This document shows positions 16,201-22,200 of a stretch of DNA of 64,000 nucleotides, piece by piece. The translations under genes were made by a program, and so were the position numbers. How positions within the stretch are numbered: the first letter of the stretch is position 1; each line of letters begins with the position of its first letter. The DNA is from Nipponacmea schrenckii. Taxonomy: Eukaryota; Mollusca; Gastropoda; Lottiidae. The stretch is taken from positions 32,423,769 to 32,487,768 of the forward strand of contig JAUJPP010000007.1 in the NCBI GenBank assembly GCA_030562195.1, read 5' to 3'. Under the pieces are notes generated by a model. That model saw only the letters and a program-made list of their open reading frames with translations, ran no database searches and had not been told where the DNA came from.

Positions 16201-19200
16201 GCAATACAGACATAACAATTTCTAAACACCAAATTACAGTTACAAGACTTTCTTCATACCAAAATACAGTAATAACACTTTTTACATACTGAAATACAGT
16301 CATAACACTTCTACATAATGAAATATAGTCAAAACATTTGATACATACTGCAATACAGACATAACACTTTCTAAACACCAAATTACAGTTACAAGACTTT
16401 CTTCATTCCAAAATACAGTAATAACACTTTTTACATAATGAAATACAGCATAACACTTCTACATACTGAAATACAGGCATAACACTTTCAACATACTGTA
16501 AGGCTACAAATTATTGCGAGATAGAAATTAATGCGTTAAATGCGACCTATCCGCGATCGCATTAATTTGTATCAGCATTTTTAAATATATATTTCAAAGT
16601 GAGTTTTGTCCCGGGCGGGATTAAGTAATTAGGTAATTATCTCTAAATTTGAAGCTGATTAGTAATCAATGACGTTAAAAAAAAACAAAAGATTTTCGTT
16701 AATTGATAAGATTAGAGGTGAAAATAGCACCAGCTGTCAGTCTTCCGGGAAGCCATTTTCTTTTTTATGATATTAAAAAATGCGACACCTATCGCAGATC
16801 GCATTAATTTGTACTCGCATTTTAGTCTCTATACCCCATGTCGCATTAATTTGTTGACGCATTAATTTCTAGCCTTACAGTACTGAAATTCAGGCATTGA
16901 ACTTTCGACATACTGAAATACAGACATACCACTTTCAACATACTAATATACAGTCATAACACTTTCTAACGATTTACATACAGTCATAACACTTTAATAA
17001 AAAATAAAATGAACCGGTATGAGGCATAGACAATACTCACAAATAGTGATATAAAAAGATGGTTACAAAAGGATTTCACAGAAACCATTGCTTTACTCAT
17101 ACTTCTTTTACCATTGTAGTCATACATAAATCTCTACAATATAATACCATACAATATTTCATGTAATATACAAATTTTGACAAATAAACAATATTATTAT
17201 TGGTGTTACAGCCCTATTATATATAACACTGTAAACTATAATCTATAACTTGAGTAAATTTACTGTTTGTTAATGGTGTTACAGCCCTATTATATATAAC
17301 ACCTACCTGTAAACTATAATCTATAGCTCTAGTAAATATACTGTTTGTTAATGGTGTTACAGCCCTATTATATATAACACTGTAAACTATAGTCTATAGC
17401 TCTAGTAAATTTACTGTTTGTTAATGGTGTTACAGCAATATTATATATAACACCTACCTGTAAACTATAATCGATAGCTCTAGTAAATTTACTGTTTGTT
17501 AATGGTGTTACAGCAATATTATATATAACACCTACCTGTAACTAGAATCGATAGCTCTAGTAAAGACACTGCTTGTTAATGGTGTTACAGCTCTATTATA
17601 CATAACACCTACCTGTAAACTATAATCTATAGCTCTAGTAAATACACTGTATGTTAATGGTGTTACAGCTCTATTATATATAACACCTACCTGTAAACTA
17701 TAATCTATTGCCCTAGCAATTACACTGTTTTTTAATGGTGTTCGGCTCTATTATATATAACACCTACCTGTAAACTATAATCTATAGCTCTAGTAAATAT
17801 ACTGTTTGTTAATGGTGTTACAGCTCTATTATATATAACACCTACCTGTAAACTATAATCTATAGCTCTAGTAAATACACTGTTTGTTAATGGTGTTACA
17901 GCTCTTTTATATATAACACCTACCTGTAAACTATAACCTATAGTTCTAGTAAATATACTGTTTGTTAATGGTGTTACAGCAATATTATATAAAACACCTA
18001 CCTGTAAACTATAATCTATAGTTCTAGTAAAGACACTGTTTGTTAATGGTGTTACAGCTCTATTAAATATAACACCTACCTGTAAACTATAATCTATAGC
18101 TCTAGTAAATATACTGTTTGTTAATGGTGTTACAGCTCTTTTATTTAGAACACTTACCTGTAAACTATAATCTATAGCTCTAGTAAATACACTGTATGTT
18201 AATGGTGTTACAGCTCTATTATATATAACACCAACATGAACCTGTAAACTATAATCTATAACTCTAGTCAATATACTGTTTGTTAATGGTGTTACAGCTC
18301 TATTATATATAACACCTACCTGTAAACTATAATCTATTGCCCTAGCAATTACACTGTTTGTTAATGGTGTTACAGCTCTATTATATATAACACCTACCTG
18401 TATACTATAATCCATAGCTCTAGTAAATATACTGTTTGTTAATGGTGTTACAGCTCTTTTATTTATTACACCTACCTGTAAACTATAATCTATAGCTCTA
18501 GTAAATACACTGTTTGTTAATGGTGTTACAGCTCTATTATATATAACACCTACCTGTAAACTATAACCTATAGTTCTAGTAAATATACTGTTTGTTAATG
18601 GTGTTACAGCTCTATTATATATAACACCTACATGTACCTGTAAACTATAATCTATAGCTCTAGTAAACACACTGTTTATTAATGGTGTTACAGCTCTGTT
18701 ATATATAACACCTACCTGTAAACTATAACCTATAGTTCTAGTAAATATACTGTTTGTTAATGGTGTTACAGCTCTTTTATTTATAACACCTACCTGTAAA
18801 CTATAATCTATAGCTCTAGTAAATATACTGTTTGTTAATGGTGTTACAGCTCTTTTATATATAACACCCACCTGTAGACTATAATCTATAGCTCTAGTAA
18901 ATACACTGTTTGTTAATGGTGTTACAGCTCTTTTATTTAGAACACCTACCTGTAAACTATAATCTATAGCTCCAGTAAATACACTGTTTGTTAATGGTGT
19001 TACAGCTCTATTATATATAACACCTTCCTGTAAACTATAATCTATAGCTCTAGTAAATATACTGTTTGTTAATGGTGTTACAGCTCTATTATATATAACA
19101 CCTACCTGTAAACTATAATCTATTGCTCTAGGAAATACACTGTTTGTTAATGGTTTTACAGCTCTATTATATATAACACCTACCTGTAAACTATAATCTA

Positions 19201-22200
19201 TAGCTCTAGTAAATACACTGTTTGTTAATGGTGTTACAGCTCCAGGCATCATTTCACTGGAACCAAAAAGTAATTAAAACAACTTATTTCAATTTAACAT
19301 TCATGACATTGGGCTGTTTTGTTTTCTTATGGATACTTTCTTTCGGGAGCCCGTATATTATTGCTTGGTGGTCAAAAAAATATTTGAAAATTTATTACTT
19401 GTTGTATGCAGAACACTATGCTTAGTGCAACATGCTAAATACCAGTAATATTTCATACTGGATAGGGGAACCTTAAGGATTCAATGTCTAACCGATTACT
19501 GGGTATGTTCTGGTAAAATATTGACATACCTGATATTACCAGTTGTTAAAACCTCTATTTCTGATGTTAAGCCACTATCAAATTCATGCATCAAGTCTTC
19601 ATCAGTATCTTGGTGTGAACATGTGATAGGACGACACTGAAATTACAATCTGTATTTAAGCACAAGAATGTTCTGCAGTATGTTCATCATCCATTGTTCA
19701 TGTATCTGCTTGGGATCGTTTTATAACTGGCAGTACTGCAGAACGAACAAAATGGCAACTAAAATTTTGTTGGTGATCAAACAAACAGCAACTCATTGCA
19801 GTTTAGATGAAAGAGAACACTTTGTATATATATGATCACAGGGTTAAAAAGAGTTTTATGGAAAATGTTTAGCACACAGAAAAGATAATCTTTATCTTAA
19901 TACCTGAAGTAAATAGACTCGGCCATCTTCAATAGCCCATTCTATATCTCTACCACTACCAAAATACTTCTCTAACTATCAAAATACAATCAAAATACTA
20001 CATTAAGCATTTATGAAACCTGTTTAGAAATTTATAATTCTATTTCTAAAGCAAGGCTGGAATTCATGTGCTAGTGGTCTGATTTCACCCCCTCAACTTT
20101 CTTCTCATTTGCAAAATTAGAAATTTGGAGATGTTTGTGTTAAATATCAATGATATCCAACCTTGTAAAGAGAAAGTAAAAAATAAACATGAGAAATTTT
20201 GGCACCTACCTTTAATCCGATTTCTGCTAATCTTAATATCATGGAATCATCTAAGCAACATACAGTAGATTCTCTATCATTAACAGTCTCTTCTTTAACT
20301 CCACCAGAGTCTGAAACACAATAGCAGAAATACATTTTTACAAACTAAACACTGTGTGGCAACAATTCCAGAATGTGCACTTCATCAATATTAATATGTA
20401 CTGTGTATAGGCCACTGTGTTGAAGACGATTAAATAAAACATAAGGTTTTTTTTATAAAATCCTACAACGATTGAGCAAATTCAGTCTGATTGTGCTCAT
20501 TTCTCAAAGTAGTCAAGTTTTTTTATAAATATGATTAAAATGCCATGTAAGAGTAATGCTTGCATTTTTGCACTAAATTTTCAATTACTCATAAACTACG
20601 TTTCCATTTGGGACAAAGAGTTTTAGTAGCAATAACTTATGATTTACCATTAACTAAAATTTTACAATTAAAAACTAATAAATTACCATTAACTATTATT
20701 TTTCATTTCAAAAACTAATAACTTATCATAACTATTATTTTTCATTTAAAAAACTAATAACTTACCATTAACTAATATTGTGCATTTCAATAACTTATAT
20801 CAAACTATTATTTTACATTTAATAAACTAATAACTTACCATTAAATAATATTTTACATATTAATAACCTACATGTATATCAAACTATTATTTTACATTTA
20901 AAAAACTAATAACTTACCATTAACTAATATTTTACTGGTTTTATTACCAATAACTCTATCTTGTAACAATAATTTATCTTTCCATTGTTTCCTTATAGTT
21001 ATAGTATCTGGATCAGTTTTACCATCTACTACAGACTACAATTAAAACAATAATAAGGCCTTGTGAACTACAGTTATTTCTTTCTTTTCACAATGAAGAG
21101 ACATTATTACTATGCACTATCTATATGCAAAACAGGCTCTAACCCAGTTCAATCTGCATAGATAAACTGTTTATCAATTAATTACTCGGGGGTAGAGTAG
21201 ATGACCATAAATCATTCTTTTATCAAAGTAAAAATATATAAGCTTGGGAATGATGTCCCCTTTGATATATTCATCACTATACTTTCATAGTACACCACTG
21301 ATTAACACAAGGACTTGTTCATTTTAAACAATGATACTTTTAAGCATATCAATGAATTTTAAATCACTATTAACCTTAATATTAACACAATGTTGCAAAG
21401 GTGGCTTTCATACCTCCCCAAGTCCATAGTTGGCATTAATAAGCATGATACTGTTATCACCATTGACAGGACTGGTGGTAAACAGTACCCCTGCAACATC
21501 GGCTGGAACTATTTCTTGTATAACTACACCCACACTTGTATTGATTGGTTGACCATGTTGACGTCTGTACTCAATAGCTTGGAATGAAAAAGCTGATGCC
21601 CAACATTTTTTTACTGCCTCAAGGATCTGAAAAAAATAACAAATATATTGTCATATTATTCATTTATCTACTCATGCCTTGTTAAAGGTTTTCGAAACAT
21701 TTTACAAGTATCATAGACATTTATGGAATTGATTTACACTATTCCTATTTTCAGTCAAATGTTTTTCCAATTGAAATTTAATTTAGATAGTGATGAAAAT
21801 AAATTGTCTCATGGAATTACAAGAACTACAATTGCAGAAGCTATCAATTTTCTTAATACAAATACAAACATTATAAAACATCTTCACAATCCATTAAAAT
21901 ACCATTTTAATGTAAATTCCTGGATTCCTTAACTACTATTTAATCTTAAAAGTAGGCCCCTACAATTTCTCCTACTCTGGAACAAAAGTAGACTACTCAA
22001 TTTTATGTTCGTAAATCCCTTTGTCACACTATAGTTCTATATTGGTTAGAAATTTGTAAAATATACCTACCTTTTCAATACCTTGAATACCAAGGAATGT
22101 ATCCATCTGACCTGCACTTGAAACTTCACTGCCATCTTCTCCTGAATTCAAAAACATTGAAAATGCAGCTGATTGTAAAGAAGTTGTTATATTTGAAATT

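Follow-up and report, generated by a model that had tools for sequence, protein, structure and literature searches.

Tandem repeats lying over exon-intron borders have been described in amphioxus under the name of 'mirages', with units of 10-160 bp. Regular splicing was reported to be undisturbed by them in Adh3 and in globin genes (PMC3087553), no aberrant mRNAs were reported for the mirages of Adh and TnC, and PGBD5 was added as a further case (PMC3902484). In human duplicated genes, new introns can arise from repeats at exon-intron borders, and transcripts retaining the repeat often exist as well (PMC2812944); in human UBC tandem AGGT sites are used both ways, which results in variable monomer numbers (PMC10809524). 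Intron gain by tandem genomic duplication has also been reviewed (PMC3443670). In the present study, we analysed 64,000 nucleotides of the limpet Nipponacmea schrenckii (contig JAUJPP010000007.1, positions 32,423,769 to 32,487,768; hereafter the window, in whose numbering positions are given), where a 78-bp repeat spans the donor of one intron in a PEP-synthase / rifampicin-phosphotransferase-like gene.

The array is very probably, on the evidence of its sequence, a border-spanning intronic 'mirage' minisatellite as in amphioxus, of which the first donor would be used and the rest discarded. The repeat unit spans the exon-intron border, and the array ends in the genuine border of a gene whose 851-aa model is intact. 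The reading frame is open over much of the array with no detectable coding constraint, and border-spanning arrays recur at two more borders of the same gene and in another gene.

The amphioxus mirages (Adh3, troponin C, the globins BflGb6 and BflGb9, and PGBD5) belong to another phylum than the limpet, and BflGb6 has 3 or 6 units in its two haplotypes whereas the limpet array has 26. Only in the limpet do two consecutive introns consist of border repeat (97% and 59%), and only there is one array open over 19 units. Like the limpet array, the dual-specific arrays of UBC and VCX3A carry AG|GT once per unit, have a unit divisible by three and keep an open frame. RNA was tested for the amphioxus mirages and exists for UBC, whose units are true coding monomers, whereas the limpet copies are intronic and known from genomic sequence alone. 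The human border repeats (PMC2812944) resemble the limpet case in that a border minisatellite alters intron structure; however, their units measure 30 bp on average with about 4 copies, and they have been taken for possible gains of introns, whereas in the limpet an older-looking intron was enlarged. Tandem duplication of AGGT-bearing sequence is also common to the limpet and to the reviewed intron gains (PMC3443670), but these make a new intron, whereas the limpet intron looks pre-existing.

In the literature that we found, the named border minisatellites are the amphioxus mirages, and border repeats are described in human duplicated genes; no mollusc border-spanning minisatellite was recognised in the literature searched, with most subscription papers outside reach. 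The original prediction had called a coding-compatible border array unusual, which holds, but similar arrays are known as mirages and the open frame turned out to be less special (see below). That three such arrays occur in a single limpet gene, and one or more in another gene of this genome, suggests that in unrelated animals an intron can be rebuilt to a large extent out of copies of its own borders. With some two dozen donors that are nearly identical, the locus is also a natural test case for spliceosomal selection among them, which bears on the old question of splice-site choice.

The 78-bp array and its host gene

Tandem Repeats Finder (TRF) called the array at 17197..19242 on the reverse strand with a period of 78, 26.2 copies and a score of 3298, and unit segmentation divided it into 26 units, 20 of them of 78 bp and two each of 84, 77 and 73 bp. 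The unit joins 57 bp from the 3' end of an exon to 21 bp of the following intron, with the donor CAG|GTAGGT at the junction. Both the approximately 26-fold amplification and this make-up had been stated in the original prediction, and both were borne out. Unit 1 is the genuine exon end and is identical to the array consensus; its exonic part forms the last 57 bp of the exon at 19184..19256 (reverse strand), placed by a hand-built model and homologue alignment. The intron that follows (17134..19183, reverse strand, 2050 bp) is array over 1987 bp, or 97% of its length. TRF also called a longer period of 474 in this region, and turnover of the minisatellite type was seen in changes common to units 12 and 20, to units 7, 9 and 17, and to units 16, 22 and 23. 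When the genome (399 Mb, 1093 contigs) was searched with the 78-bp unit and with the 30-bp unit of an acceptor array described below, matches among the best candidates scored were at this locus only. The 78-bp array was found as one copy at one locus, on a contig of 34.9 Mb. A dispersed satellite or transposon was rejected as the source of the unit, since the matches among the scored candidates are confined to this locus.

The host gene was modelled at 7991..26939 on the reverse strand and is incomplete at both ends. Its PPDK_N domain scored 250.4 bits against a cut-off of 27, and the best PEP-synthase homologue listed is that of Patella vulgata (55%). A first model of 23 hand-built exons had consistent phases and no stop; alignment with 41 homologues revealed residues absent from it between DYSLQ and AGTQKDM. 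They are supplied by an exon of 93 bp and 31 residues at 17041..17133 (reverse strand), which had been overlooked in the original prediction, keeps the frame and matches the Patella protein (P0121). The completed model has 24 exons, 46 internal borders and 851 aa without a stop, and a pseudogene was therefore rejected. At the place of the added exon exactly 31 residues are present in 87 of 120 homologues, 30-32 in 111 and 0-1 in 4. The acceptor paired with the 19183 donor is therefore 17134; the acceptor at 15989, which had been proposed because this exon was missed, belongs to the next intron.

After realignment of the corrected model, SLQ was followed by no inserted residues ahead of the next exon in any of the 120 homologues. 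The 26-residue peptide of the unit matches 93 of the 266 proteins fetched, and 6 have a second match, in each case a chance-like piece of 5-9 residues elsewhere. Three predicted mollusc proteins, from Batillaria (P0126), Physella (P0155) and Sinanodonta (P0153), break at the position of the array intron, and the Sinanodonta protein is without just the stretch of exon 17133-17041. From these breaks the array intron looks pre-existing and older than the array; birth of a new intron by tandem duplication was rejected as improbable, since other mollusc proteins appear to break at the same position.

From the exon, the frame stays open for 507 codons, covers units 1-19 and breaks in unit 20, in agreement with the 19 stop-free units claimed earlier. 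CAG|GT is present in 23 of the 26 units, each with AGGT once as in dual-specific arrays; it reads CAG|GA in unit 3 and was removed by a 5-bp deletion in units 24 and 26. The GT donor is retained in 18 of the 19 frame-open units, unit 3 being the exception, and frame-breaking indels occur in units 20, 22, 24 and 26. Beyond the open stretch, in units 20-26, the donors have been lost or are out of frame.

The distinct changes among the units did not reveal coding constraint. No significant synonymous excess was found among 43 distinct substitutions (14 synonymous against 11.3 expected, p 0.20), nor a significant deficit of stops (0 against 1.95 expected, p 0.13), and the same held for units 1-19 alone (9 of 32 synonymous against 7.9, p 0.38; 0 stops against 1.8, p 0.14). 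Maintenance of the array as coding repeats was rejected on these grounds. The first 21 nt are open in the frame of the exon in 14 of the 23 introns of the gene, the array intron included, and about one in five border-spanning arrays is expected to look open, since this fraction is to be multiplied by the one third of units divisible by three. A letter-shuffled unit was open in the given frame in 7.8% of trials, a control that ignores that 57 of the 78 bp are copied coding sequence. We conclude that the openness of the frame needs no selection.

Border arrays elsewhere in the gene

All 46 borders of the gene were searched with the 24-mer across each border, allowing up to 5 mismatches, in the adjoining intron only. 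Copies were found at three borders, the donor at 19183 (21), the acceptor at 15990 (12) and the donor at 20917 (4), and none at the remaining 43. The acceptor array is a minisatellite with a unit of 30 bp, TATTTCAG|TATGTAGAAAG..., at 15972..16498 on the reverse strand (17.7 copies by TRF), with more copies at 16881-16995. The amplified acceptor belongs to the exon at 15819..15989 (reverse strand), placed by the hand-built model and homologue alignment. Of the 1051 bp of its intron (15990..17040, reverse strand), 617 bp (59%) repeat the 3' border of this intron, and the rest is mostly an insert resembling a miniature inverted-repeat transposable element (MITE). This MITE-like insert (16496..16880, no strand assigned) was recognised by eye from 11-bp terminal inverted repeats, CTGTAAGGCTA..TAGCCTTACAG, and a TA target duplication. 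The array would be older than the insert, because the insert sits inside it and splits it.

The third array is a donor-spanning minisatellite with a period of about 39/79 bp at 20621..20935 (reverse strand); it lies at the donor of exon 21035-20918 and opens intron 20917-20311. An in-frame stop that follows intron base 17 precedes all 4 of its extra ATG|GTAA donors. Among the 9 extra exact CAG|TATG acceptors of the 30-bp array, 7 lead to a stop or frameshift and 2 are coding-compatible. In the two sister arrays together, 11 of 13 extra exact sites thus lead to stops or frameshifts, and exon-proximal splicing must therefore be usual in both.

The placement of arrays was compared with a random placement of unit-length pieces, using the 9 TRF arrays inside the modelled gene after overlapping rows were merged. 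Three of the 9 span a border against 0.82 expected (p 0.033), and among the four other minisatellites with at least 5 copies 2 are border-spanning (p 0.026). There is some excess of arrays at borders, not a strong one.

Which donor is used

According to the mirage reading favoured above, a 78-bp piece that carries the donor between its 57 exonic and 21 intronic bp would have been tandemly duplicated, and splicing at the exon-proximal donor would have retained the original mRNA. The copies would be tolerated as intron because the first donor still yields that mRNA, and the array would have grown, partly by multi-unit blocks, until it was nearly the whole intron. Units 1-19 would be open because 57 of the 78 bp derive from coding sequence, no stop occurs in the 21 intron bases and 78 is divisible by three. 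More generally, a border duplication of any unit length would be harmless if the exon-proximal copy is used, and could in this way persist and expand. First-donor use, neutrality and the mechanism of duplication are all three what we infer from this arrangement. The fallback offered in the original prediction, in which the first donor is used and the rest is tolerated, becomes the best-supported reading, with the use of the first donor itself probable rather than observed.

Several results weigh against it. The best complementarity to U1 is that of unit 14 (CAG|GTAAGT, 9/9) and not of unit 1 (8/9). When all 86 occurrences of changes were counted, 0 stops stood against 4.21 expected (p 0.01), a count in which shared changes are not independent. 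All 4 frame-breaking indels fall within the final 7 units (p 0.002; treating the two 5-bp deletions as one leaves three events and p 0.013), and both indels within units 1-19 are +6. The excess at borders is only modest (3 of 9 arrays), and 2 of 8 arrays are border-spanning once the 78-bp array is left aside (p 0.12); for the human border repeats 66% of intron changes are reported to have repeat-retaining transcripts as well (PMC2812944). Edge decay could also give the clustering of indels in the last units, because the last seven units also tend to carry more substitutions each (4.4 against 2.9 in the others, p 0.06). The indel pattern nevertheless keeps a weak leak hypothesis alive: low-level use of the 18 in-frame GT donors, which all read AG|GT and might thus serve as acceptor or donor, would keep units 1-19 stop-free and frame-true while distal units decay, with a rare ladder of 26-residue blocks as the outcome. 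Such a self-tolerating splice reservoir appears unlikely to us.

The original prediction put forward a ladder of proteins, in which several donors of units 1-19 would be used and 26-residue blocks added after the ATP-binding domain. The open, in-frame units with their 18 GT donors, and the confinement of frame-breaking indels to units 20-26, speak for such a ladder, and there are precedents in the stochastic use of tandem AGGT sites in human UBC (PMC10809524) and in the human border repeats that are often kept in some transcripts (PMC2812944). However, the synonymous excess and the stop deficit are not significant among distinct changes, the junction carries an insertion in 0 of 120 homologues, the added blocks would repeat a conserved piece of an enzyme, and coding compatibility is largely or entirely absent from the sister arrays. 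The ladder is therefore unsupported, and we consider it improbable. It is still more doubtful that each CAG|GT serves as acceptor and donor in a dual-specific or recursive manner, the intron being removed in 78-nt steps to give the canonical mRNA. AG|GT does recur in 23 of 26 units, and an enrichment in human tandem repeats is reported for introns that are spliced at dual-specific sites (PMC10809524), but AG|GT is the automatic outcome of copying a CAG|GT donor and the pyrimidine tract of the unit is weak (0.45 of 20 nt, where the 23 introns of the gene range over 0.45-0.75).

An assembly artefact or a wrong copy number is the least probable explanation, and we give it very little weight. It could draw on another oddity of the assembly, namely a set of matches on one contig (C3) that reappears with a fixed shift of 29,626,336 bases; against it, the array is a single locus in a 34.9-Mb contig, and its units differ among themselves in an ordered pattern.

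Other genes and the remaining window

Myosin genes were surveyed in 129 kb around 73 of 128 myosin-motor exon matches, the 128 having come from 65 scored candidates out of 293, and the survey took in arrays lying no more than 15 bp from a match. Two TRF arrays touch a matched exon. One (L053) is a weak 23-bp array of 3.2 copies at the donor of a myosin exon, AGTAAATTCTTAGGG|GTAAGTCA, and the other (L042) is a low-complexity run at the end of a myosin exon. At the latter locus (C3, about 3817565-3817906) a 184-bp repeat of 1.9 copies was also observed, a coding piece ending in a donor, which is probably a duplicated alternative exon.

Genome-wide, the pattern of CAGGTAAGT three times with perfect donors had 145 matches against 74 for the reversed pattern, among the matches listed; many of the 145 come from one repeated family on contig C9, and an excess of donor-bearing minisatellites was not convincingly shown by these listed matches. 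Eight of the pattern arrays were opened, and 1 of the 8 has a clear exon border (L067, G000:C5:3575201-3576000). Each of its 9 units of 25 bp, a length not divisible by three, holds 16 bp of exon end, the donor and 9 bases of intron; the exon is Sushi-like at 15.3 bits, below the cut-off of 20.7. By eye, this array fills most of its short intron. In another (L069), the array is downstream of the donor and does not span it. In 5 others, inspection by eye of up to 300 bases preceding the first exact donor revealed no exon end, although one may be present. The last of the eight (L062, G000:C3:7975301-7976500) has a 27-bp repeat of 22 copies with a polypyrimidine acceptor and a donor on one strand and, by eye, an open 9-residue coding repeat on the opposite strand.

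The matches on C3 that recur at the constant offset of 29,626,336 bases are those of myosin, kinesin and the pattern, which suggests a very large false duplication in the assembly. Within the window, satellites with a period of 161 bp at 8729-9215 and 56737-58083 are apparently one family in opposite orientations, and arrays of the same period, similar by eye only, were also met close to myosin genes (L043, L058). At the end of the window, an open frame for a P450 (2-955) shares 83% identity with a protein of Lottia gigantea.

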